Part shown: one piece after another, positions 13,601 to 63,760 of the stretch
Position numbering within the stretch: position 1 is the first letter of the stretch
Layout of the letters: every line of letters starts with the position of its first letter
Source of the DNA: Sinonovacula constricta
Taxonomy: Eukaryota > Mollusca > Bivalvia > Cardiida > Solecurtidae
Length of the DNA stretch: 64,000 bases
Assembly (NCBI GenBank): GCA_007844125.1
Contig: CM017561.1
Location: 63,841,256-63,905,255, forward strand
Direction: 5' to 3'
The notes under the pieces: generated by a model
The model's input: only the letters and a program-made list of their open reading frames with translations
The model's database searches: none
What the model was told of the DNA's origin: nothing
Position numbers and translations under genes: made by a program

Positions 13601-13608
13601 TAGAAAGG

Positions 13609-14210
13609 ACTAAGAAAGACGTAGAAATCTATCGTGTTTAGACTAAGAAAAACGTAGAAATCTATCGTGTTTAGACTAAGAAAGACGTAGAAATCTATCG
13701 TGTTTAGACTAAGAAAGACGTAGAAAACTATCGTGTTTAGACTAAGAAAGACGTAGAAATCTATCGTGTTTAGACTAAGAAAGACGCAGAAATCTATCGT
13801 GTTTCGACTAAAAAAGACGTAGAAATCTATCGTGTTAAGGCTGAGAAAGACGTAGAAATCTATCGTGTTTAGACTAAGAAAGACTAAGAAAGACGTAGAA
13901 ATCTATCGTGTTTAGACTAAGAAAGACGTAGAAATCTATCGTGTTAAGACTAAGAAAGACGTAGAAATCTATCGTGTTAAGACTAAGAAAGACGTAGAAA
14001 TCTATCGTGTTTAGACTAAGAAAGACGTAGAAAACTATCGTGTTTAGACTAGGAAAGACGTAGAAATCTATCGTGTTTAGACTAAGAAAGACGTAGAAAT
14101 CTATCGTGTTTAGACTAAGAAAGACGTAGAAAACTATCGTGTTTAGACTAAGAAAGACGTAGAGATCTATCGTGTTTAGACTAAGAAAGACGTAGAAATC
14201 TATCGTGTTT
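13609..14210. repeat. 33-bp minisatellite, about 18 copies
   Basis: The period is 33 bp, with core AGACTAAGAAAGACGTAGAA followed by ATCTATCGTGTTT. Most units differ by one or two bases. One unit near 13870 carries an extra 11-bp internal duplication (GACTAAGAAAG twice). It lies downstream of the CDC123 stop, possibly beyond its 3' UTR. Confidence 0.95.
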
Positions 14211-15589
14211 ACACTTTCTCCTGACCAGAGTTTGGCTGTGCTTCGTCATAAACCCACCATATTTAATAACCAATAAACCTGTTACATTGCTGATAATGTG
14301 AAATGGTGATTTTGATAAAACTAGAAATTTAAGCAGAAAATCTGAATGAGTTTGTGTGCATCTGTCATACAAAAAATTAGTTACTAGTAGTTTTTATTTA
14401 ATGCTATTACGTACATTTATATTTTGAAGAGGCCTTGCCAAAATGACAATGATAATACCCTCCTAGTGGCCAAGAATGTTAGTATTTTAATGGCATTTAA
14501 AAATATGTTTTAATATGTGCATACACCTGCACTGTCCTTTATTTATACATGTACATTTGTAAATTCTAATGGAAAAATCAATACATAATCAATTCTAGAA
14601 CACTATGGCAAAACAGTTGTGGACAGCAAAATAAGAAACAAAAACGGAACACCAGTCAATATTTTATAAAAATCATTTATAAAACATAATTACTTGTACA
14701 GTTTAGCATTTTGGTCAATACTTGTAATGCCTGCTACAATCATTAACAAAAAATAATCTAAATACAACATGCTTTATTACTGGTAAAAGGAACAATACAA
14801 TCTGTCCATCATTTCCAGGTATGAAAATAGTCACTTTTCACCAGTTCCAAGTATTAAAATACTAGTGAAACTATCTTTTTAGTGAAAGATATGTAAAATG
14901 TCACCTTTTAGTTTATTAAAATACATGTATATTAAAAATAATACCTTAACACACTTAGATTATTAATTAATAATCACAAATATAAGACAGTTTACAATTA
15001 TAGCTTTGTAACAGAACTTGGCACACTGCTGAAATGGCAAGCTGCATAATTCTGACACAAGACAAATGTTTTCCCTTAGATGTAGTGCTACTTTTGTTTT
15101 AGACAGCATTACTGATTATTTTTTATGTTTTATCCTACCGCAACATATTGAAGAAAATGAGCATTTACTTTTTAGCTGCGTAAAGTTATTTTGGTCGTTG
15201 TGCCAACAAAACTGATTTTTGTACCTTTAAACATTTCTGCCAAATGTTAACATTTGCACTCTTACTTATATTAATATGCCTTGTCTTGTTCAATACATAT
15301 GTAACGTTATCAAGTTGTCATCAAATTTTGTTGCAGGATACAGCTTACATCATGGTCAACATATGTCCCTCTAAATACAATAAAACATTTTAAATTTTGT
15401 TTTGGCTGTCATAAAAGCAACTGACTAGACTCTTAGGTTATTAATTGTATCATGTGGAGTTTTTTTAAAAGAGCCTGAAACTTCCTCATTGTTTGTTTGT
15501 ATGCTACAAGGATGTAGGAAGTGATGCCTCGCCTCCAGGCAAGGGTCACCTTGATGGACGAGTGTCAAGAATAAACTAGTTAGAGATGG
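14211..15589 (-). other. CDC123 downstream region, probable 3' UTR
   Basis: No independent gene was recognised. The part nearest the stop at 15590 should be CDC123 3' UTR. Several AATAAA-like hexamers on the minus strand are available (for example near 14391), but the true end cannot be chosen from sequence alone. Confidence 0.35.
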
Positions 15590-18500
15590 TCAAGTTACTG
15601 GGCCAACATCAGGGGCATCATCATCAGAATTATTACTTCTGTTCTCCTGTTCTATTTTCTGAAATGTGCAAACACAACATAAAACACAAACCTACATACA
15701 TTGATTGAATGAAAAAAATTAAGGCCGCCCTTTTCATATCAAAAAAGAATAAGGTGAGATAATAATTTTACATTGCATTTAAAATTTTCAAAAATCTGAC
15801 AGAAACATGAGTAGAGGCTGGTAAACAATGACCACTGTTAAATACACAATTATATGAAGACTATTTTTAATTGAATTTTACTTATTTGTTTTACGATCCA
15901 CAAAGTCAACCAGTTATATTATAGTATGTGTTTAGCAATATGTTAAACTATAACAACAGAAATTTCAAGATTTGTAAAATAAAGTATTTTTTTTATGACT
16001 ATCTTCTATATTTATTAGTTGCTGTATAAATTTATAATAGTTTTTACCAATTTAAGGAGCTCCATAAGTTTCTCTGGGTCCTGCCCTGAGGAAATGTCCA
16101 CAAAATCTTTTGGTACAGCGTATGTGGAGTAGGGGTTGGGTTGCACCCCTCCCGCATCCTCTATACATCGGAACTCGGGCACCTTGATATAAATAAAACA
16201 AATAAAACTATTTTAGATCCTGATGAAGACCCTAGTTGGGTCAGAACATTGATTAATAATAGTTTACTATATCTAATGTTGGTCGTTAGTTCCACTTACC
16301 CACTTCTTGATATGTAAAACTATTTTAAATGAAGGAAAAACAGAAACTTTTGGTACAGTAAAGACAAAGCAGGGTTTGGCCCTTTATACTAGCAGCCAGG
16401 TAAGACAATACAAAGCTGGAACCATAAGCCAATGAATAACACACCCACCCAATGTATCGCCAGCACCTTCTTCCTTTTAAAAAGTCTCTCATTTTAAGTC
16501 TTATATCAGTGCCTGAACAATCGTTTAAAGGGGCAATAAGGCACACATTTGCATTTTAAATACATATTTTAAATACATGTCCCCAGACTATGTCATTTCG
16601 TTAAAAAATGAATAAATATTACAACAGCATACATAAAATCAGATGTAATTTCCGTTTATATCATATATTTATCTATTTGTTTAACTTGACTAAAATGCAT
16701 TTTAGAGTATGTCAAGTATAAACTTTCTCTGAATCCACTAAAACACAATAAAGTTTTCATTTTCTCTTGTTATTTTGTCAATTTGAGCAGAGAACTATTG
16801 AAAAACAAAACAATAGATGTGTTTAATCTATAAACATTAGAATCAAAATCTGTTATCTTATATAGTATAATTCAGTTATTACCTGACATTGTAACTCTGT
16901 GTCTTCCTGTACATGATCATCCTGTAACAACTCATCCCAGGAGAACAGCAAGCTGTCAGTCACAGGACCGTATGGGTTAAAGTCCAGTAATAACAGTTTA
17001 CCCTGCAATGATTGACAGTTGTCAATCAATACTCAACATCTGCTTATATATGTAATATCACAGTTAAACAAATGACAGGACACAGCTCAAATAAAGTAAT
17101 TAAATTATAAATAATTACTTTTTGAAAACTTCTGAGGTTAATGTTTATATTTTTTATAAAATTTACATGTTAAGGAATTGTTAAAGATTATCACAAACCT
17201 TTGAATGTCTATAAACATCAAAGCAATCTGAAATGAAACAGCAGAGCAGTGTTAAAAAAAGATCATTGTACCATAGAGCCAGCTAAGAAGTAAAGCATTC
17301 ATTGTTTTGAAGGAATCTGATAGAATAGTTGATATTGATACATTTGAGAAATTTATGTTTAAAATGTATTTTTTGCAACATTGCATCAACACATGATGGT
17401 GGCGCCCAGCAAATTATTGATGGAGGAAGTCCCCAATCTTAAGTCTGGGTAGGACCTCCGAGGTATCCCCAATGTAGCTGGAAAATCTGCCAACATAAAA
17501 GTTCTCGCCTAAACTAGAACTCAACCCCACATGGTGAGCGGCTGATGTTACTGTTTATTTTTGTGTACTTATGTGTCTTGCTTAAAAAAAACAGAAAACC
17601 AATCCATGGTTATTGCTACATTATCCAAGGAATCTGAAGATTTCAGGCCACCACAAAATATCTTAAGTTTAAACAGTAAGTGTACAATAGACATGAGCCT
17701 CAAAAAAAAACATCATAGAATTTTCTTAATTCATTAAGAATATTAAGATTATTGTTTTGCTTTTATTTTTGAGATACATCAAAGCGACCAATTATAGGTA
17801 GTCTGGGTAGAACCACCGGCACACCACTGGAAGACCTTCCCACATTTTGCCCGGAACTGGACTCGAACCCATGTAGTAGAACTAAGCAGTCATAGGAGTA
17901 ACAAATCAGCACCCCTACCACTATACCACAGACTCCCCCTTATGAGACTAACAATCATGAGCCTGTGGCAGTAAGGAATGATAATTACATAGGAGGATGT
18001 GTAGAACTACTGGTATGTACACCAGAAATAACATCTTGACTGAAAATTAAATGGTTTATGCCAATCAAGAATACACTTAGATTTGAAAGAAAAGGTACAT
18101 GTATGCAAGACTCACTTATTATATAACAATCCTGTAAACAATATATAAGCCAAAAACCATGTAACTGCTAATAGAAAGGTTCCTTTCAATTAATACTAAT
18201 GCTGGGACATATGATAGTTAGAAGACTTACAGTTTTTGTCTGGGAAGTTTCCTTTGATGATGTTGCTGTGAAATGACAGGATGTCTGCTATGATGTCATT
18301 CTTCTCTTCCACCAGATGGTTGTGGAACATGTCATTGTGACGCTGACAGATACCTGAATACAAGAATAGTATCACAGATACAGAATTAACCCTGATCTAG
18401 TATGAATACAAGGATAGTATCACAGATACAGTATTAACCCTGATCTAGTATGAATACAAGAATAGTATCACAGATACAGAATTAACCCTGATCAAGTATG

Positions 18501-21500
18501 AATAGAAGAATAGTATCACAGATACAGAATTAACCCTGATCTAGTATGAAAACAAGGATAGTATCAAAAGTAAAGGATTATCCCTGATCAAGTATGAATA
18601 TAAGAATAGTATCAGAAGTAAAGGATTAACCTTAATCAAGTATGAATACAAGGATAGTATCAGAAGTAAAGGATTAACCCTGATCAAGTATGAATATAAG
18701 AATAGTATCAGAAGTAAAGGATTAACCTTAATCAAGTATGAATACAAGGATAGTATCAGAAGTAAAGGATTAACCCTGAACAAGTATGAATACAAGAATA
18801 GTATCAGAAGTAAAGAATTATCCCTGATCAAGTATGAGTACAAGAATAGTATCAGAAGTAAAGGGTTAACCTTAATCAAGTATGAAAACAAGGATAGTAT
18901 CAGAAGTAAAGGATTATCCATGATCAAGTATGAATTGACAATTCAAATGCGAATTATGTAGATCCAGATCAAAGAGCTTGTGTTGGGTGCTGTCTGGCCA
19001 AGATCTGCAATACTTGCAGCAGTCTTAAACAATTTCTAGTGGCCTATCATAAAATTGAAGCAATAAATAAAAGTTTGTGACGTTTATTAACACATGAAAT
19101 AGCACTAAGTTGAATGTCAAATCTATAATGAAGACTGGATGTATAATATCTGGTACTCTAGGTCTTATGTTGGGCCAACCCCAATCCCATCCCCCACCAC
19201 CCCCTTCCCAAAAGACAACCAATGAAGACCTGACATATTGTCACCATGTGTGGAAATAAATATCTGCTTGTAAATACAAAAAAGACAAGTGAAATAATAA
19301 GAAAAAGCCCAAACACCAGAAGACTGGGAATATTAGCTGATAAGCTGCCATATGTCTCTCTAGTAGCACAGCTTTCACTGACTTTCAATGGACTTATCAG
19401 TCTAATTCAAAAGATTTCCTTAAAAACAAACAAAAATCTATTTGACCAAAGTGCCTAAACAAATAGGATTTAAAACTTTCATACATGTTATGCTTTAAAA
19501 TTACTTGCATCTGATGCTTTTCTAATGCTTCGTTTTTAGTTCAGTAGTCAAATGGGAAACAAGCTCTAACAACTCATATTAATCCCTCTTCACCGTCCAC
19601 ATATATACATTTTATTTTATGTTGTTTTCATTAAGTTTGCATTTACATGGATATATACTCGACCATGTACTTACCTATAACTGTGTTATCCTTTACAAAA
19701 CACCTGAACTCAGAGGCTAGGTTTAGTTCCTGCCATCTCCTCAACACCAGCTCATACTTGACCAGTGCCTCATTTCTTATGTTCTCATCATCAGAACATA
19801 GATGGAATCTGAAAATGAAAGTTTTAACCATTTACTGGCTGGAAACACATTTAGGGTGTGGCATGTTAAACAACAATTTAAACAAAAGTTGTTAACTTTG
19901 CATCAGCCTTAAAACAACCTAAGAATTATTTTTCTTCCATGCTGAAACTTTTCATTGAAGTCTTATTCGGATTCTGACATTAAAGAAATTTATTGAGTGT
20001 TAAAATAAATAATTTCACTTTAAGAAAAATACAAGCTTACATCAAGAAAAAAGAAAAAAATTGTGAGTTTGGACTTTACTATCAGTAATTTTAGTGCATT
20101 TTTCTGGCCATATTTATAATTAATATTAATGCACACTTTAATAAAATACAAAAGCAGTTAAATTTTAATAATTTAATTTATATAGTTGTTTTTTGACCAA
20201 TACTGTAACTTTAAAGTGACTTGATTATAGTTAATCAAAAAGCAACACTTCTCTGAAGAACAATCATAATGGAATACTACATTATCCCTGATCATTATTT
20301 TTTTTTAATATTAAGTATTTTTGCTTGAACCTGTGCTGTCGCAGTTTCGTTGTTTTTTTTAAACTATTTCCACTACTTCTATGCTAAGGACTTTCAACAT
20401 GCATTAGTCCAACTTTAATAACAAAGATATATAGCTACATGTGTTCAAGCACCTGTCTGCTAGAGAACACTTACCACCCCTAATATATATTAGGTCTGTT
20501 CCTTCATCAAAGCCATTTATTCATAAATACAATAAAGCCTTACTAAGAGGACCACCTGTGTTGTTTTGGAAAGTATGCTGCTTAGCGAGGCAGTCCTCTA
20601 AGTGAGTTCATATATAATACTTATATATCTATTAAAAGGTGTAATATTATACTGTATTTATAGTGTATTGATATTATCTTGTGTTACAGTTTATTTGTTT
20701 CATATACCTAAACATAAAATAAAGTACATTTTCAGTATTTGTTAATTTATTTCAAATTTGTGAACTAGAAATTACAAACAGAACATGTTATAAACTGTTT
20801 TTCTTATGTGACAATACATTCAATCAACAGCACATTTAATTTACCAAAGAGCATGTGTCAAATTGTATTTTACTGGAAGAACTGCTAAACGTTATGTCTG
20901 CCTTTAGTATAGTCCTTCAATGCCTGCTACTGGAAGTCTATCTCAATGCCAACAAGAGATGAGGTCACTTCACCAAGATCATATTGTACTGCTTAATGTT
21001 AAAAACGTTTGATCAGACATTAGTTTGTAAACATGAAGCAAATCATCACTTTATGATTACCGTAAGTGAATCGGCAATGTCATAATTTGAAGTTGTAAAA
21101 TGTGTAAACAATCCCTTTCAGTCAAGCAGTGTTGGCAGGCATGATCAACTGATTAATGGCACCTGAATAAGTTGATCACCTGGTGCCACCCTGAGTAGCG
21201 GGGATTAAGAAAAGTGTGAATTGGTTAACTGATTCTGAAATAACTGTCCATTGTAGCATGTTGCCTCACTTGCCGGGATAGGAGGACATTTAAATAAAGA
21301 AAGAATAAAACAGTTATGGAAAAAAGTGTCACACGTAACAGGGTGCCCCGCTTAGTTGGGTGATTTTTTAATGAGATATTAATGTACTGTCTTCTTCTGA
21401 GTTGAAATATTGTGAACTTTTATCATATGTTTCATTTTTACATCATTTTACTTTGCAATTATAGCAACAATCACCATAATTATTATTGAAAATATTATGA

Positions 21501-24500
21501 ATAGCAAAAAAGCAATTATTGCAGCTATGACACCAATTAGTCTACAAACTTCTTCTTGATGCTGTATTGGTTGTGGCAGAAAGTAACCTCAGCATGATCC
21601 CTATATGACCTTGAGCTTCACTCAACGCCATAATATATGCCAACATTTAACAAATTAAAGGCAACTCACGGCTGTGTGAGATCATGGCAGACAAAATCTG
21701 AACTTTTCAAAAGAAGGTAGATATCACTGGGGCAGGTGCACTTTAACGTCTTGTCAAAGGATATCCAGCTGGCATCCTGTGTTAGAGAAACATTTCTGTA
21801 CAGTTTAGCATTTCTAATGGCATGCTTATTTGCTGATTACATATATATATATATATATATATATATTCAAAAGATTCAGATGCACTGCAAGTCAGCTAGT
21901 TGATAAAATAAAGGTTATCAAGAAACCATTTGAACATTTGAATGCTATTATTGGCAAATTTTGCCATACATGGTAATCATCTATAAAAATGATACCTACA
22001 AAATCTATTTATCCATAAAAAAATGTGACATTTGTTCAACATAAGCATGTTTGCTTCTTTTACATACCGGTACACATTTTTTTAAAATGAAATCTGTTTT
22101 TATCTTCTTTCAATGATTTATAATTACATAAACCTAACATAAAATATTTACAAAAAGAATAAAAAAGAAATAAAGACACACAATATAAAAAGATTACCCT
22201 TGGTGCTGACCAATTCAACTTTGGGAAAACCATTCCTCCCAGTTTTTTTATTGCTGCCTTTACTTCTGCTTCAAACTCCGGGAAACATGGTTCCTGCAAT
22301 AGTCAATAGACACTTTCATTCTCTGGGAAACATGGTTCCTGCAATAGTCAATAGACACTTTCATTCTCTGGGAAACATGGTTCCTCCAATAGTCAATAGA
22401 CACTTTCATTCTCTGGGAAACATGGTTCCTGCAATAGTCAATAGACACTTTCATTCTCTGGGAAACATGGTTCCTGCAATAGTCAATAGACACTTTCATT
22501 CTCTTCGAAACTTGGTTCCTGTAACAGTCAATAGACACTTTCATTCTCTGGGAAACATGGTTTCTGCAATAGTCAATAGACATTTTCATTCTCTTCGAAA
22601 CATGGTTTCTGCAATAGTCAATAGACACTTTTATTCTCTTCGAAACATGGTTTCTGCAATAGTCAATAGACACTTTTATTCTCTTCGAAACATGGTTTCT
22701 GCAATAGTCAATAGACACTTTCATTCTCTGGGAAACATGGTTTCTGCAATAGTCAATAGACACTTTTATTCTCTTCGAAACATGGTTTCTGCAATAGTCA
22801 ATAGATACTTTTATTCTCTTCGAAACATGGTTTCTGCAATAGTCAATAGACACTTTCATTCTCTTCGAAACATGGTTTCTGCAATAGTCAATAGACACTT
22901 TTATTCTCTTCGAAACATGGTTTCTGTAATAGTCAATAGACAATTTCAAACTCTGGGAAACATGGTTCCTGCAATAGTCAATAGACACTTTCATTCTCTG
23001 GGAAACATGGTTCCTGTAATAGTCAATAGACACTTTCATTCTCTGGGAAACATGGTTCCTGCAATAGTCAATAGACACTTTCATTCTCTGGGAAACATGG
23101 TTCCTGCAATAGTCAATAGACACTTTCATTCTCTGAGAAACATGGTTCTTGTAATAGTCAATAGACACTTTCATTCTCTGGGAAACATGGTTCCTGCAAT
23201 AGTCAATAGACACTTTCATTCTCTGGGAAACATGGTTCCTGCAATAGTCAATAGACACTTTCATTCTCTGGGAAACGTGGTTTCTTGCAATAGTCAATAG
23301 ACACTTTCATTCTCTGGGAAACATGGTTCCTGCAATAGTCAATAGACACTTTCATTCTCTGGGAAACATGGTTCCTGTAATAGTCAATAGACACTTTCTA
23401 ACTCTGGGTAACATGGTTCCTGTAATAGTCAATAGACACTTTCATTCTCTGGGAAACATGGTTCCTGCAATAGTCAATAGACACTTTCATTCTCTGGGAA
23501 ACATGGTTCCTGCAATAGTCAATAGACACTTTCATTCTCTGGGAAACATGGTTCCTGCAATAGTCAATAGACACTTTCATTCTCTGGGAAACATGGTTCC
23601 TGCAATAGTCAATAGACACTTTCATTCTCTGGGAAACATGGTTCCTGCAATAGTCAATAGACACTTTCAAACTCTGGAAAACATGGTTCCTGCAATAGTC
23701 AATAGACACTTTCATTCTCTGGGAAACATGGTTCCTGCAATAGTCAATAGACACTTTCAAACTCTGGGAAACATGGTTCCTGCAATAGTCAATAGACACT
23801 TTCATTCTCTGGGAAACATGGTTCCTGCAATAGTCAATAGACACTTTCAAACTCTGGGAAACATGGTTCCTGCAATAGTCAATAGACACTTTCATTCTCT
23901 GGGAAACATGGTTCCTGCAAAATTCAATAGACACTTTCAAACTCCGGGAAACATGGTTCCTTCAATAGTCAACAGACACTTTCAAACTCTGGGAAACATG
24001 GTTCCTGCAATAGTCAATAGACACTTTCAAACTCTGGGAAACATGGTTCCTGCAATAGTCAATAGACACTTTCAAACTCTGGGAAACATGGTTCCTGCAA
24101 TAGTCAATAGACACTTTCAAACTCTGGGAAACATGGTTCCTGCAATAGTCAATAGACACTTTCATTCTCTGGGAAACATGGTTCCTGTAATAGTCAATAG
24201 ACACTTTCATTCTCTGGGAAACATGGTACCTGTAATAGTCAATAGACACTTTCATTCTCTGGGAAACATGGTTCCTGTAATAGTCAATAGACACTTTCAT
24301 TCTCTGGGAAACATGGTTCCTGTAATAGTCAATAGACACTTTCAAACTCTGGGAAACATGGTTCCTGTAATAGTCAATAGACACTTTCATTCTCTGGGAA
24401 ACATGGTTCCTGCAATAGTCAATAGACACTTTCATTCTCTGGGAAACATGGTTCCTGTAATAGTCAATAGACACTTTCATTCTCTGGGAAACATGGTTCC

Positions 24501-27500
24501 TGCAATAGTCAATAGACACTTTCCTTCTCTGGGAAACATGGTTCCTGCAATAGTCAATAGACACTTTCATTCTCTGGGCAACATGGTTCCTGCAATAGTC
24601 AATAGACACTTTCATTCTCTGGGAAACGTGGTTTCTTGCAATAGTCAATAGACACTTTCAAACTCTGGGAAACGTGGTTCCTGTAATAGTCAATAGACAC
24701 TTTCATTCTCTGGGAAACATGGTTCCTGTAATAGTCAATAGACACTTTCTAACTCTGGGTAACATGGTTCCTGTAATAGTCAATAGACACTTTCATTCTC
24801 TGGGAAACATGGTTCCTGCAATAGTCAATAGACACTTTCATTCTCTGGGAAACATGGTTCCTGCAATAGTCAATAGACACTTTCATTCTCTGGGAAACAT
24901 GGTTCCTGCAATAGTCAATAGACACTTTCATTCTCTGGGAAACATGGTTCCTGCAATAGTCAATAGACACTTTCATTCTCTGGGAAACATGGTTCCTGCA
25001 ATAGTCAATAGACACTTTCAAACTCTGGAAAACATGGTTCCTGCAATAGTCAATAGACACTTTCAAACTCTGGGAAACATGGTTCCTGCAATAGTCAATA
25101 GACACTTTCATTCTCTTGGAAACATGGTTCCTGCAATAGTCAATAGACACTTTCAAACTCTGGGAAACATGGTTCCTGCAATAGTCAATAGACACTTTCA
25201 TTCTCTGGGAAACATGGTTCCTGCAAAATTCAATAGACACTTTCAAACTCCGGGAAACATGGTTCCTGCAATAGTCAACAGACACTTTCAAACTCTGGGA
25301 AACATGGTTCCTGCAATAGTCAATAGACACTTTCAAACTCTGGGAAACATGGTTCCTGCAATAGTCAATAGACACTTTCATTCTCTGGGAAACATGGTTC
25401 CTGTAATAGTCAATAGACACTTTCATTCTCTGGGAAACATGGTTCCTGCAATAGTCAACAGACACTTTCAAACTCTGGGAAACATGGTTCCTGCAATAGT
25501 CAATAGACACTTTCAAACTCTGGAAAACATGGTTCCTGCAATAGTCAATAGACACTTTCATTCTCTGGGAAACATGGTTCCTGTAATAGTCAATAGACAC
25601 TTTCATTCTCTGGGAAACATGGTACCTGTAATAGTCAATAGACACTTTCATTCTCTGGGAAACATGGTTCCTGTAATAGTCAATAGACACTTTCAAACTC
25701 TGGGAAACATGGTTCCTGTAATAGTCAATAGACACTTTCAAACTCTGGGAAACATGGTTCCTGTAATAGTCAATAGACACTTTCATTCTCTGGGAAACAT
25801 GGTTCCTGCAATAGTCAAAACATATTCAATAAAAACATTTTTCTAAAATGAAACAACATATTTTTTTACCCTTACTTCATTTAACTACATGTTAGAAATT
25901 ATTTATCTTATTTATGTATTTTTCTTATTCCCTTGTTTTGCATTTTTGTTTGTTAATGAACTGTTCCTGGAGATATAAGTTAAATGAGTTACAGTAATGT
26001 TTATTTCTGGTTAACGCTATCCTTAAATCAATAAAACATTTATTTTATTTCTATCTGGTCATTACATCATTTTAATAGCAGACATAGTTTGCTTATTTGC
26101 AAGAAATAATCTGAGTGAAAGCCATAACTAACCTCAGCCACTGCGGCGAACCCCTCTTCACTCTCCCAGTCTACATCATCCTGCAATAAAGATTTTATTC
26201 TCATTATCAGCTAGAATTACAACCTAAAATAAAAAAGAGAAGACTCTCGTATGCTCAGTGATAAAGATGAGACATTTACCCTCAGGACTTTAGTACCTAC
26301 TGTTTGTATGCAGACATCCAAGCTGTCAATCAAACGGGCATATTTAACCAACCAGATTAAGCTAGGTATAATTGCTCACCATACTGGTTGAAAGGCGAAG
26401 GTAAACATAACCATTCGACAATGACTAGGTATAAAGTTGCAAATCAGCTTTTTGTCCGGCATTCTATTATGCATTAGACTGGGAAAAATTACTATCTGGA
26501 GGTTTTCTAGCACCATCAGATTTTTATCATGCTTGTTTCTTGTAACAAGAGATAACACCAGCATGAGATCTACATTACAGTGTCTTATCCAAGTGTTTGA
26601 TGCCATACATGCTGCTGGTTAACATAGGTGTATGAGCATGTGGTCATGCACAGTGTCAGTTACAGTCAGCTTCTGTACTGACATGATTGATATACCAGTT
26701 TGTTTGACTTGTTTTGTCTTTATATTACATTGCACTGAGACAATTATGGTCATATTGGCAACATCCAGCTAATTATTGCTGGAGGCAGACCCCAGACACA
26801 CATCTAGGTAGAACTATCGGCGCACTGCAGATTAGATGCAAAACCTCCCCTCATGAAAGTTCCCACCCCACGCAGCGAGGGGCTGAGGAGCTTCAAGTCA
26901 GTGGCTGTAACTGCTCGGCCACGGGCACCCCCTGATATACCAGTACTACAATGCTAGACTTCAAACAACATTAAAGACATTTTTGATTATGTGCAAGAAT
27001 AATAAACAACCTGCTACTCAACATTGATTACCTGGTCATCCTTGTTCTCCTCTTCATCACTATCATCTCCATCATTGTTAGCTGACAACATGACAGTGCT
27101 GTGAATAGGAAGAAAACACAAGTAGGCATATAACACCTACTTCAAACTCAGATGTACAACTAAACAAAAGATACGGAAGAACAAAGTCTCATAATAATCT
27201 CTGTCTTGATTTAAACTGTGCATGGAAAAATATCTCTTAAGAGTCTTGTATAAATCAGCAGTTCCAAAAAGTTATGTAAGAGATGGAAAATTACTGGGGG
27301 AAACAAACATAATTAATAATGTACATTAATTGCAAAATATCTGATCTACATGCACTGCCCTTGATTTCCTTCCAGACTAGTACATATACATGTATTCAAT
27401 AATAAATCTACATGAAAAAAAGTATTATATTCTTCCAAATCATTATGTAAGAGAAGAAAAAGTAATGGGGGGAACAAATTTTATCATAAACGTACATTTA

Positions 27501-29631
27501 TTGTTGAATATCTGCTAACAATTTCTACTACACTAGTGCATATATTCAACAATAAGTCTTACCCCTCAGGAAGTACAACTTTGTCTGCTAGCAAATAATC
27601 AACAAACTCTGTGGGGAGTGGAAGTATACAACTGAAACAGATAACATACTACATGTAGTTGAAAAAACAATGTTTTTGTTAGTTAGGTTTATCTTCCCAC
27701 CAACAGTATTTCAGGAATTTGGAGATGCTGTCTACTTGAAGCAGATATAGTGCTGCCTTCTCTGTGTAAAACATGCCATGAACACCTGGATTGATACCAC
27801 ATCCAGTCACATTTGCCTGACACCCGGCCAACCAGTCATGGAACAATCCTTATGTTTGCTTGAGGGTTAGCAAGGGAGCTATACCACTACTATTTTTAAC
27901 ACATTTTGTATGCCATGTCTTTGGGGCATACCTTATATATATTTACATTTCAGTTTCATATAAAACGATTCAAAATATATGAGAAAAAAAAGCTGGGATT
28001 TTCAATAAACATGTTTTAGTTGGTTAAATACTTGAATTGTGTATGTATGTTCATGCCAACAACACATCTTTTATTAGGGGTGCCCATGGCCGAGTGGTAA
28101 GATTTTGACTTGTGTATCCTTAACCTCTTATCACATGTGTTTAAATACCAGTCAGGGTGAAATTTAATATGTGGGGTAGTCTTCGAGCTCTCCTGAGGTG
28201 TGCCGGTGGTTCTACCCAGACATCTGTCTGGGGTCTTCCTCCACTTATAATTATTCAGACATTTCCAGTATGGTCACAGTTGTGTCATTGTTATGTAACA
28301 AAAAGCAACTATTCTGATCTATAAGTCAGTATATTGATATACAGATATACCTGGGGGTGGAAGCCCCTTACACCTGTGTAGAACCACTAATGCACATGGA
28401 ATCACGTGGGAGAACAGTTTATTTTCTAAACTGCAACTCAACACCATGCGTCTGGGGTGGAATTATAAATCACTTACTCTAACCATCAGCTGAGTTATAA
28501 ATTACTACTCTAGATATCTGACAAATAAATTTGATAAAACCTGGTACAATAATATAAAGGTAGATAAAACTTCATTTTTTTTTTGCTTTGTTCCAAGACT
28601 TTATTATTTCTAATGTTTTCAAGCTGTATAAATTTAAGTTAAGAAATAAAATTGAAAACTGCCAGTTTATGTCCAAATTCTATTTCTATAAGAACCAAAT
28701 TAAAGTCTTGTTATAGATAGTTTCCATGTGATGTCATCGACACTGATAAGACAGTTTAAGGCAGCCATCTTTGTGGGCAGAAGCTAATGCAGGCCGAAAT
28801 CGGGAAATAAGTGCTGTATTAAACTCACCACTGTGTCTTTATTTTTCAGTCTATTTTACTAAATTTTAAATCAAATTTAACAGCTTTTATAAAGTATTTT
28901 AAATATCAAAACTATATTTTGATAGTTTGAAAGGTTAAAGAAATACAACCGAAAATGATACACTGTTCATTTTGTTTTAAGTATGAGCCAATAGTTTTAT
29001 TTATTTTTGTATATTAATTCTATGGGCATTTATTAATTGTAAAAATATTGTATTCTAAAAATATGAATTTCAAGAGCTTTTCAATGGTGTGTAGCTTTTA
29101 ATTTTCAGACCACAAATGAAGAAATTATAAGAAAATCAAATTTACCCATCTATACAATTTATATGAAAATCCCTTGAAGTTACCATCAAAGATGGCTGCC
29201 ATGATAAGGGATTTTCACTGATGTGGAAACTATCTATATTTTGTTTTTTGAGAAAGAGACCAGTTATGATCATTATGGCAATGACCAGCCGTTATGGTGG
29301 AGGAAAAACCCTGACATGTCTGGGTAGAACAATTGGCACAAAGCAGGTCAGCTGGAAGACCTTTCGACATTAGGTCCCTTGACCCAAATGGGACTTGAAC
29401 CACGTGGTAGGAGGCTGAGCAATCAGAGGAGATATAAGTCAGTGACTTACCACTATGCCAAGGGCACCCAAATTTAATAAGCATTATTAGAATGTCTTTG
29501 TATTTTATCATTAAGCATGTTCACAGTAATAGCAGAATGTATTTTATGAGTAAATACCTCTTGATTGTGTGGTCCTTGAACCTGGAGTACCACTCTGAGA
29601 AGGTGCAATTTAGTACTTCTGATATCTTCAT
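15590..29631 (-). CDS. CDC123: CDC123, eIF2 complex assembly factor
   Basis: Twelve exons: 29631-29558, 27631-27563, 27098-27032, 26180-26133, 22293-22198, 21776-21670, 19808-19675, 18353-18231, 17227-17199, 17002-16883, 16182-16048 and 15658-15590. All junctions are GT/AG and in phase, giving 356 aa (human about 336). CDC123 is a cytosolic ATP-grasp-fold protein that binds eIF2 gamma and promotes assembly of the eIF2 trimer. Diagnostic stretches are [14 protein letters not shown] near the N terminus, an acidic linker (57-80), [14 protein letters not shown] (about 105-118), [39 protein letters not shown] (Asp256 and Asn258 as likely metal ligands), and [13 protein letters not shown] near the C terminus. 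The tail ends in Asp-rich residues as in other animals. The start at 29631 aligns with the human start. Introns 4 and 7 carry tandem arrays that abut the next exon. The gene is divergent from METAP2. Confidence 0.96.
17395..17545 (-). repeat. SINE-B fragment in CDC123 intron 8
   Basis: It shares the family phrases (ATTGATGGAGGAAGTCCCC, GTCTGGGTAGGACC, CAACCCCACATGGTGAGCGG) with the copies at 26740 and 35315. The tRNA-like head is missing, so it is truncated. Confidence 0.55.
17770..17940 (-). repeat. tRNA-derived SINE, family B
   Basis: Read on the minus strand, the head carries TGTGGTATAGTGGTAGG (box-A-like) and GGGTTCGAGTCCAG (box B, covering 17861-17870), followed by the family body with GGTTCTACCCAGACTACC. 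It lies in CDC123 intron 8. Confidence 0.75.
18354..18935 (-). repeat. 48-bp minisatellite abutting CDC123 exon 8
   Basis: About 12 units of 48 bp (plus-strand core AGTATGAATACAAGAATAGT then ATCAGAAGTAAAGGATTA). The array starts at the base next to the exon 8 acceptor (exon boundary 18353). The first four units contain ACAGATACAGAATTA, which resembles the exon/intron junction ACAGATACCTGAATAC, so the unit may derive from the splice junction. In the array the acceptor AG is mostly lost. Because 48 is a multiple of 3, an open frame rich in Leu and Tyr runs through it; this is not a gene. Confidence 0.93.
20533..21372. mobile_element. possible Tigger-like remnant
   Basis: AAAGCCTTACTAAGAGGACC at the left and CGCTTAGTTGGGTG at the right loosely resemble the subterminal GACCACC-rich ends of the element at 48132. 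No transposase frame or exact inverted repeat was seen. It lies in CDC123 intron 6. Confidence 0.25.
21838..21868. repeat. TA dinucleotide microsatellite
   Basis: A run of alternating AT, about 15 repeats, in CDC123 intron 5, close upstream of exon 6 (whose acceptor boundary is 21776). Confidence 0.9.
22280..25818 (-). repeat. 45-bp array of duplicated CDC123 exon 5 splice acceptors
   Basis: About 79 units of 45 bp occupy intron 4 and run into exon 5. On the minus strand each unit reads GAACCATGTTTCCC, then AGAGAATGAA or AGAGTTTGAA, then a 21-nt tail containing TCTATTGACTATTGCAG. The real exon 5 starts GAACCATGTTTCCCGGAG after the same CTATTGCAG, so each unit equals about 24 nt of exon start plus 21 nt of intron end. 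Every unit inspected keeps an AG (TGCAG or TACAG). In the exon frame each unit has TGA within TATTGAC. Two units are 46 bp (near 23280 and 24631). Spurious long open frames run through on both strands because 45 is divisible by 3. Confidence 0.95.
26740..26932 (-). repeat. tRNA-derived SINE, family B
   Basis: On the minus strand the head starts GGGGTGCCCGTGGCCGAGCA, with a Ser/Leu-tRNA-like box A. Box B is degenerate. The body has ATTATTGCTGGAGGCAGACC and CATCTAGGTAGAAC on the plus strand. It lies in CDC123 intron 3. Confidence 0.7.
27695..27915 (-). repeat. SINE family A body in CDC123 intron 1
   Basis: It carries the family phrases CAGATATAGTGCTGCCTTC, CATGCCATGAACACC, CCACATCCAGTCACAT, CCAACCAGTCATGGAAC and TTAGCAAGGGAGCTATACCA. 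The tRNA-like head is not recognisable at its right end. Confidence 0.7.
28077..28325 (+). repeat. tRNA-derived SINE, family B, fullest copy
   Basis: The head GTGCCCATGGCCGAGTGGTA carries a clear Ser/Leu-tRNA-like box A; box B is weak (TTTAAATACCAG). The body includes GGTGGTTCTACCCAGACATC and GGGTCTTCCTCCAC and ends in a short variable tail. It lies in CDC123 intron 1. Confidence 0.75.
29255..29470 (-). repeat. tRNA-derived SINE, family B
   Basis: On the minus strand the head GGGTGCCCTTGGCATAGTGG is followed by box B GTGGTTCAAGTCCC (29391-29404) and the family body (GTGGAGGAAAAACCCTGACA on the plus strand). It lies in CDC123 intron 1, about 90 bp from exon 1. Confidence 0.75.
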
Positions 29632-60870: not shown

Positions 60871-60879
60871 TGTGTACAA

Positions 60880-63760
60880 GGCAGTGTGTACCTCTTCGTC
60901 TTTACTTGGTCTAGGCAGCGTGTGCCTCTTCGTCTTTAGTTTCTCTAGGCAGTGTGTACATCTTCATCTTTACTTACTCTAGACAGTGTGTACCACTTCG
61001 TCTTGACTTACTCTAGACAGTGTGTACCTCTTCGTCTTTATTTAGTCTAGTCAGTGTGAACCTCTCCGTCTTTCCATACGCTAGGCAGCGTGTACCTCTT
61101 CGTCTTTACTTACTCTAGGCAGCGTGTACCTCTTCGTCTTTATTTAGTCTAGTCAGTGTGAACCTCTTCGTCTTTACTTACGCTAGGTAGTATGTACCGC
61201 TTCGTCTTTATTTACTATAGGCAGCGTGTACCTCTTCGTCTTTACTTACTCTAGGCAGCGTGTACCTCTTCGTCGTTACTTGCTCTAGGCAGCGTGTACC
61301 TCTACGTCTTTACTTACTCTAGACAGCGTGTGCCTCTTCGTCGTTACTTGCTATAGGCAGCGTGTACCTCTTCGTCGTGACTTACTCTAGCCAATGTGTA
61401 CTTCTTCATCTTTAATTACTTTAGGCAGCGTGTACCTCTTTGTCTTTACTTACTCTAGTCAGTGTGTACCTCTCCGTCCTAACTTACTGTAGGCAGCATG
61501 TACCTCTTCGTCCTGACTTACTGTAGGCAGCATGTACTTCTTCGTCTTTACTTACTCTAGGCGGTGTGTACCTCTTCGTTTTTACTTACTCTAGACAGAG
61601 TGCACCATTTCATCTTTACAGACTCTAGACAGCGTGTATCTCTTCGACTTTACTTACTCAAGGCAGCGTGTACCTCTTCGTCGCAACTTACTCTAGGCAG
61701 TGTGTACCTCTTCGTCTTTACTTACACTAGGCAGTGTGTACCTCTTAGTGTTTACTTATTCTCGGCAGTGTGAACCTCTTCGTCTTCAATAATCTAGGTA
61801 GCGTGTATCTCTTCGTCTTTACTTACTCTAGACAGTGTGTACCTCTTCGTCTTTACTTACTTTAGCCAGCGTGTACTTCTTCGTTTTTACTTACTCTAGG
61901 CAGCCTGTACCTCTTCGTCTTTACTTACTCTAGGCAGTCTGTACCTTACCTCCTCGTCTTTACTTACTCAGGTCAGTGTGTACCTCTTCGTCTTTACTGA
62001 CTTAGGCAGTGTGTTACTCTTCGTCTTTACTTACTCTAGGCTGTGTGTTACTCTTCGTCTACACTTACTCTAGACAGTGTGTAGCTCTTGGTCTTTACTT
62101 ACTTTAGGCAGCGTTTCTCTTCGTCTTTACTTACTTTAGGCTGCTTGTTACTCTTCGTCTTTACTTACTTTAGGCAGTGTGTTACTCTTCGTCTTTATTT
62201 ACTCTAGACAGTGTGTAGCTCTTCGTCTTTACTTACTTTAGGCAGTGTGTAGCTCTTCGTCTTTACTTACTTTAGGCAGTGTGTAGCTCTTCGTCTTTAC
62301 TTACTCTAGACAGTGTGTACCTCTTCGTCTTTACTTACTCTAGACAGTGTGTACCTCTTCGTCTTTACTTACTTTAGGCAGTGTGTAGCTCTTCGTCTTT
62401 ACTTACTCTAGACAGTGTGTAGCTCTTCGTCTTTACTTACTCTAGACAGTGTGTACCTCTTCGTCTTTACTTACTTTAGGCAGTGTGTAGCTCTTCGTCT
62501 TTACTTACTTTAGGCAGTGTGTAGCTCTTCGTCTTTACTTACTCTAGACAGTGTGTAGCTCTTCGTCTTTACTTACTTTAGGCTGCTTGTTACTCTTCGT
62601 CTTTACTTACTCTAGGCAGTGTGTTACTCTTCGTCTTTACTTACTCTAGGCAGTGTGTACCTCTTCGTCTTTATTTAGTCTAGTCAGTGTGAACCTCTTC
62701 GTCTTTACTTACGCTAGGCAGTATGTACCGCTTCGTCTTTATTTACTATAGGCAGCGTGTACCTCTTCGTCTTTACTTACTCTAGGCAGCGTGTACGTCT
62801 TCGTCGTTACTTACTCTAGGCAGCGTGTACCTCTACGTCTTTACTTACTCTAGACAGCGTGTGCCTCTTCGTCGTTACTTGCTATAGGCAGCGTGTACCT
62901 ATTCGTCGTGACTTACTCTAGCCAGTGTGTACCTCTTCATCTTTAATTACTTTAGGCAGCGTGTACCTCTTTGTCTTTACTTACTCTAGTCAGTGTGTAC
63001 CTCTTCGTCCTAACTTACTGTAGGCAGCATGTACTTCTTCATCCTTACTTACTCTAGGCGGTGTGTACCTCTTCGCCTTTACTTACTCTAGACAGAGTGC
63101 ACCATTTCATCTTTACAGACTCTAGGCAGCGTGTATCTCTTCGACTTTACTTACTCAAGGCAGCGTGTACCTCTTCGTCGCAACTTACTCTAGGCAGTGC
63201 GTACCTCTTCGTCTTTACTTACTCTAGGCAGTGTGTACCTCTTCGTCTTTACTTACTTTAGCCAGCGTGTATCTCTTCGTCTTTACTTACTCTAGACAGT
63301 GTGTACCTCTTCGTCTTTACTTACTCTAGACAGTCTGTACCTTACCTCTTCGTCTTTACTTACTCAGGTCAGTGTGTACCTCTTCGTCTTTACTTACTCA
63401 GGTCAGTGTGTACCTCTTCGTCTTTACTGACTTAGGCAGTGTGTTACTCTTCGTCTTTACTTACTCTAGACAGTCTGTACCTTACCTCTTCGTCTTTACT
63501 TACTCAGGTCAGTGTGTACCTCTTCGTCTTTACTTACTCAGGTCAGTGTGTACCTCTTCGTCTTTACTTGCCTTAGGCAGTGTGTTACTCTTCGTCTTTA
63601 CTTACTCTAGGCAGTATGTACCTCTTCGTCTTTACTTTCTTTAGGCAGTATGTACCTCTTTGTCTTTACTTACTCTAGTCAGCGTGTACCTCTTCGTCCT
63701 TACTTACTATAGGCAGTGTGTACCTCTTTGCCTTTACTTACTGTAGGCAGCATTCCGACC
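60880..63760. repeat. 34-bp minisatellite, about 85 copies
   Basis: The unit is GGCAGTGTGTACCTCTTCGT followed by CTTTACTTACTCTA. Units vary (GTGTTACTC, GTGTAGCTC and GTCGTTACTT subtypes) and cluster by subtype. The block 61140-61700 recurs at 62640-63190 with an offset of 1,497 bp (44 units), marked by the rare phrase GAGTGCACCATTTCATC in both. Short open frames of 66-90 codons are by-products. Confidence 0.95.

Follow-up and report, generated by a model that had tools for sequence, protein, structure and literature searches.

The analysed window, a 64,000-nucleotide stretch of the bivalve Sinonovacula constricta (contig CM017561.1, positions 63,841,256 to 63,905,255 of the forward strand), was found to contain a complete and intact CDC123 gene on its minus strand, in which intron 4 carries a long tandem array built from repeats of the gene's own intron 4/exon 5 junction. 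The array is very likely a minisatellite of the kind named mirage, in which the copy adjoining exon 5 is likely spliced and the other 78 copies are likely tolerated as decoys with a predicted stop. The unit, its 79 copies, the intact gene around them, a stop after each extra acceptor and a repeated block within the array were observed directly. These observations are best read as a mirage that is tolerated in a genome rich in minisatellites, with splicing directed mainly to the copy next to the exon and probably governed by exon definition.

Structure of CDC123 and of the intron 4 array

The CDC123 gene was found to contain 12 exons encoding 356 amino acids, with GT-AG borders in all 11 introns and a spliced reading frame open throughout. 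Exon 5 matched the Pfam domain D123 (PF07065, E 4.4e-10) and the spliced 356-residue product matched PDB chain 8phd (Cell division cycle protein 123 homolog, E 1.6e-96). A protein search for CDC123 gave 1879 matches, 120 of them listed, and the closest named relatives among the matches listed were those of Ruditapes (63%), Mya (62%) and Mactra (60%), which makes a heterodont bivalve the likely host. The first-pass annotation of this DNA had placed the array in CDC123 intron 4 with the junction as its unit, and both the spliced model and the splitting of the array at the exon-start motif bear this out. The coordinates below are those of the window, and the array was delimited with Tandem Repeats Finder (TRF).

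15590..29631, minus strand: CDC123 coding span, 12 exons (spliced open frame, PDB chain match)
26133..26180, minus strand: exon 4, 48 nt, donor TGAG/gttagt, phase 0 (spliced gene model)
22294..26132, minus strand: intron 4, 3839 nt; 314 nt once the array is removed (computed)
22294..25818, minus strand: portion of the mirage array that lies within the intron, unit of 45 bp (TRF and motif splitting)
22198..22293, minus strand: exon 5, 96 nt; first 24 nt the same as in array units (spliced gene model, Pfam D123)

The minisatellite was found by TRF at 22276-25818 on the minus strand with a period of 45, 78.7 copies, 95% matches and a score of 6137, which is far beyond chance, and it makes up all of intron 4 except 314 nt. 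Cutting the array at the exon-start motif gave 79 junction copies, the number estimated in the first-pass annotation, running from 25805 for copy 1 to 22293 for copy 79. The spacing between junction copies was 45 nt in 76 of the 78 intervals and 46 nt in the other two, so that the expected addition of 45n nt on use of an earlier copy holds for the copies downstream of both 46-nt units and is not exact for the others. The unit was found to contain 24 nt resembling the start of exon 5 and about 21 nt resembling the end of intron 4, and the final copy continues into the complete exon 5 (22293-22198).

The CCG codon of the exon start was found to be changed to CCA in 66 of the 78 extra units and TT to AA in 55 of the 78; the exon-like half of the units has drifted in the manner of non-coding DNA. 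The exact 24-nt exon start had been reported in a single unit near 23940, which was confirmed at 23959, but two extra units contain it, the other being at 25265 (units 42 and 13, respectively, separated by 29 units). The mean likeness of equal-length units was 93.7%. An exact repeat of 381 bp at a distance of 1351 suggests that a block of some 30 units was duplicated.

25242..25265, minus strand: exact 24-nt exon 5 start, unit 13 (motif comparison)
23936..23959, minus strand: exact 24-nt exon 5 start, unit 42, acceptor GAAG (motif comparison)
24685..25065, minus strand: 381-bp exact repeat, first copy (computed)
23334..23714, minus strand: 381-bp exact repeat, second copy, distance 1351 (computed)

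A junction query against the whole genome (1.22 Gb, 177 contigs) was found to match the CDC123 locus in 35 of the 35 matches listed, in a search that skips very common words.

Acceptor sites and reading frame

The acceptor triplets of the 79 sites were found to be CAG in 74, AAG in 3, GAG in 1 and CAA in 1, so that AG was kept at 78 of the 79 sites. Among the extra sites, 46 of 78 showed full identity with the real site over the final 20 intron nt and 22 of 78 over positions -45 to +3, whereas none of the 78 was identical over the 20 intron nt together with all 24 exon nt. Because 22 decoys are identical over -45 to +3, local sequence is unable to single out copy 79; only position and wider context can.

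An in-frame TGA was found 33 nt past every extra acceptor (78 of 78), which agrees with the premature stop predicted earlier for the use of any upstream copy. The array contains 313 AG dinucleotides including the real site, and the frame stays open to the end of exon 5 from a single one of them, that at 22293, which had already been proposed as the productive acceptor. The candidate branch A of the real acceptor (TGA at -23) sits in the exon-derived half of unit 78, and each unit thus appears to carry acceptor signals of its own; every unit would supply a spare acceptor, its exon-derived half contributing the candidate branch A and its intron-derived half the pyrimidine tract and AG.

23149..23151, minus strand: sole copy without AG (CAA, before unit 60) (site comparison)

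In two units (25625 and 24229) the sequence ACAG/GTACC was observed, a possible acceptor-plus-donor point. GT follows the acceptor in 2 of the 78 extra copies, and the array is not one of dual-specific splice sites of the UBC type with AG/GT in each unit.

Probable use of the last acceptor

A public protein of 356 residues (P0001), derived from a contig of 1222 nt, was found to join exon 4 to exon 5 exactly at 22293. Of its 356 residues, 355 agree with the product of the spliced gene; the one that differs is residue 279 (H to L), encoded in exon 10. With 1222 nt against a coding span of 14 kb, the contig very likely derives from spliced RNA, of another haplotype or individual. Its source tag 'lgn' is one that we take to denote the Logan assemblies. 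This protein is a strong indication that exon 4 is spliced to copy 79 in real mRNA, and acceptor function is indicated for the last copy only.

22294..22295, minus strand: AG of the productive acceptor, copy 79 (only in-frame AG of 313; join present in P0001)

Scoring of D123 matches in the genome, limited to the ten best candidates, gave five in this gene, four in two distant copies on contig C10 and one weak match elsewhere on C10; no near-identical second CDC123 gene or retrocopy was present among these ten. A retrocopy as the origin of P0001 was rejected, as the C10 copies were not matched to P0001 by tblastn and the listed matches of the junction query were confined to the CDC123 locus. 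The two C10 copies (L030 and L031) were found to have similar scores, to lie about 0.87 Mb apart and to contain an open frame of 238 amino acids each.

A truncated decoy isoform was absent from the protein collection (one candidate, none significant), which is a weak negative because short, decay-prone products are unlikely to be deposited. The open frame of the array, searched among proteins, gave three candidates, none of them significant.

Comparison with known systems

Amplified splice acceptors had been taken at first for a class without description, and this did not hold. The name mirage was given to tandem repeats spanning an intron-exon boundary in Adh3 of amphioxus, and such repeats were reported also for the globins BflGb6 and BflGb9, with unstable length (PMC3087553); a later report adds PGBD5 as a mirage gene and cites troponin C (PMC3902484), and a human variable number tandem repeat (VNTR) that repeats a donor is also known (PMC5954066). 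The CDC123 array has tandem units of minisatellite size (45 bp, 78.7 copies, 95% matches), a unit crossing an authentic intron-exon boundary with the intact exon 5 adjoining, and splice signals retained at nearly all copies, as mirages have. As in the CDC123 array, the repeat of BflGb6 was described as containing the 3′ end of the intron and the 5′ part of the next exon, and many amphioxus mirage copies were described as retaining their splice signals while splicing was reported as normal (PMC3087553, PMC3902484); reverse transcription PCR suggested no interference with regular splicing (PMC3087553). Unlike BflGb6, for which 6 and 3 units were reported in two haplotypes, the CDC123 array contains 79 copies and its host is a bivalve.

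The VNTR in intron 18 of human ABCA7 was reported to have a unit of 25 bp in about 12 to 427 copies and to include the exon 18 donor, and a cryptic-donor product in which one unit is retained was reported to carry a frameshift and premature stop (PMC5954066). It resembles the CDC123 array as a minisatellite that contains an authentic splice site, whereas it repeats a donor in place of an acceptor, and both splicing and the risk of disease are reported to be influenced by its length. Polyubiquitin UBC likewise has a splice site once per tandem unit (PMC10809524); unlike those of CDC123, the UBC sites are AG/GT and serve as donor and acceptor, the units are coding and the copies are described as really used. 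Cis-competition (Reed and Maniatis, cited in PMC9225289) also sets rival acceptors against each other within a single transcript, a main variable being how far each lies from its partner site, but as described there it was studied in laboratory constructs, whereas CDC123 holds a natural set of 79.

Searches of one open-licence literature library listed no paper recognisable as describing a mollusc mirage. To our knowledge, the class has been known from lancelets only. The class itself is already described, and the novelty lies in the size of the array, in its host, in a further case from this genome (described below) and in the natural test of acceptor choice that it offers. Choice among equal acceptors is usually studied with few competing sites, and CDC123 offers 79 natural ones, of which 22 extra sites match the real one over 48 nt and differ only in how far they lie from the donors and in their wider surroundings. 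The pattern of use among the copies would distinguish scanning from the 5′ side, under which copy 1 would win, from exon definition, under which copy 79 would, and from a stochastic choice.

Proposed mechanism

The array probably originated by tandem duplication across the junction, followed by growth through unequal exchange. Exon 5 (96 nt), placed between introns of 3839 nt and 421 nt, would be recognised across the exon. Recognition is reported to pass from the intron to the exon at an intron length of 200-250 nt, and exon definition is reported to favour the sites closest across the exon (PMC9225289); both introns beside exon 5 are longer than this switch. Copy 79 would be favoured under exon definition because it is the acceptor nearest to the exon 5 donor. 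Exon definition thus predicts copy 79 as the main site with some use of its near neighbours, and transcripts spliced to a decoy would carry the stop and be removed by nonsense-mediated decay.

Several points weigh against this reading. For 3′ sites under exon definition, the preference for upstream sites is described as significantly reduced and not plainly reversed (PMC9225289, section 9), so that decoy use could be substantial. P0001 gives evidence that copy 79 is used and none on how frequently, and an assembler prefers the non-repetitive isoform. The RNA nature of its contig, very likely as it is, rests on the length and on our reading of 'lgn' as Logan. Apart from the shared TTGACTATTGCAG, the stretch of intron tail that lies upstream of copy 1 was found to resemble the unit no more than shuffled sequence does, 926 of 2000 shuffles reaching its alignment score, so that the first duplication is not reconstructable. 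The genome is represented by one assembly. A microhomology of TTGAA at the first duplication was conjectured and found no support when tested.

Alternative explanations

A regulatory role is an improbable alternative to the tolerated mirage. A set share of transcripts would use decoys, gain the TGA and be destroyed, and copy number would tune the level of CDC123, an eIF2 assembly factor. We would be surprised, to the same degree, by its wider form, in which acceptor-spanning minisatellites recur in this bivalve genome and the CDC123 ladder acts as a copy-number rheostat, each acceptor diverting transcripts to a stop and array length setting the level of eIF2 assembly. The decoys are intact (AG at 78 of 79 sites) with a stop after each, and the splicing of ABCA7 is reported to be altered by VNTR length (PMC5954066), as a regulator would have it. 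The acceptor cores of the decoys, however, were found without depletion of variants: 27 distinct substitutions were counted over the 78 units, and 3 of the 27 lie in the acceptor core, which makes up 3 of the 45 columns, against 1.8 expected, besides an inserted A at the acceptor core in two units. The decoys are therefore not visibly conserved, and constraint on their acceptor cores was rejected on this count. The missing truncated product speaks weakly against regulation, and published mirages are reported as not disturbing splicing (PMC3087553, PMC3902484). Nothing points to a selected regulatory role for the extra acceptors, be it a slowing of splicing or a tuning of CDC123, both of which the first-pass annotation had suggested. 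An RNA structure hiding the decoys was also rejected, as the folding of three stretches was no stronger than that of shuffles (z 0.24, 1.14 and 0.22).

An assembly error, by false expansion or merged haplotypes, is very unlikely to account for most of the copy number. Merged haplotypes could explain the 381-bp exact repeat at distance 1351, and an amphioxus mirage was reported as misassembled in the draft genome (PMC3087553), but the window contains no Ns, and the 27 distinct variants and several unit subfamilies are scattered along the array. Runs of identical units come into register when shifted by 29, 30 and 31 units, which means that the blocks differ by single units; an error would in any case alter the number of copies and not the existence of the array.

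Stepwise removal of the intron by recursive or nested splicing, with copies as intermediate acceptors and the ACAG/GTACC copies (25625 and 24229) as acceptor-plus-donor points, has hardly any chance of being right: dual-specific AG/GT sites in tandem repeats are known for UBC (PMC10809524) and CAG/GTACC occurs in two units, but GT is present in only 2 of the 78 extra copies, GTACC, by visual judgement, seems to make a poor donor and both GT units may stem from one through the block duplication.

Minisatellite load and a second mirage

The CDC123 array stands in a genome with many arrays. The background sample contained twenty 10-kb stretches from contigs C1-C7 (L009-L028, 200 kb in total), in which 12 arrays of at least 450 bp were found, and 9.9% of bases lay in arrays of any size with a period of 10 or more. 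Scaled up, about 73,000 arrays of at least 450 bp would be present genome-wide, and roughly 1% of random 45-bp seeds would hold an acceptor on the assumption of 250,000 acceptors; taken together, hundreds of mirages could arise before selection.

A scan for a second mirage covered ten peptidase-M24 exon loci chosen regardless of arrays, at least two pairs of which share a gene. One clear mirage was found among the ten (L039, best match METAP1D, E 2.3e-31). Its extra copies match the exon at 7 or 8 of 9 nt, are spaced by 52-54 bp and keep AG in 3 of 4, and as many close exon-start matches after NAG were found in 1 of 5000 shuffles. The L039 mirage is older and more diverged than the CDC123 array.

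L039:1702-1979: 4 extra copies of the acceptor together with the opening 9 nt of a METAP1D-like exon

The CDC123 array extends the mirage class to a mollusc, and the second example in the same genome suggests that mirages may follow wherever minisatellites are dense.

Other arrays and neighbouring features

Intron 7 of CDC123 was found to contain a further array, which ends at the exon 8 acceptor, its last partial unit being the final 20 intron nt with the tract and AG. It was rejected as a second CDC123 mirage, as its exon match measures 8 nt and is not contiguous with the intron tail, and matches of at least 8 nt were found in 107 of 1000 shuffled exon starts.

18354..18935, minus strand: 48-bp x 12 array in CDC123 intron 7 (TRF)

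The sequence GTATCTGT was observed in the start of exon 8 and in the four exon-nearest units of this array, the other units being without it.

CDC123 was found to have a METAP2-like gene on the plus strand as its head-to-head neighbour; the label METAP2 is our assumption, made from its translation. Downstream of the CDC123 coding span, an array of 33 bp x 18 was present at 13608-14215, with open minus-strand frames and an 11-residue repeat. An array of 34 bp with about 84 copies and 84% matches was present at 60879-63750, followed by an AG-rich run to near the end of the window.

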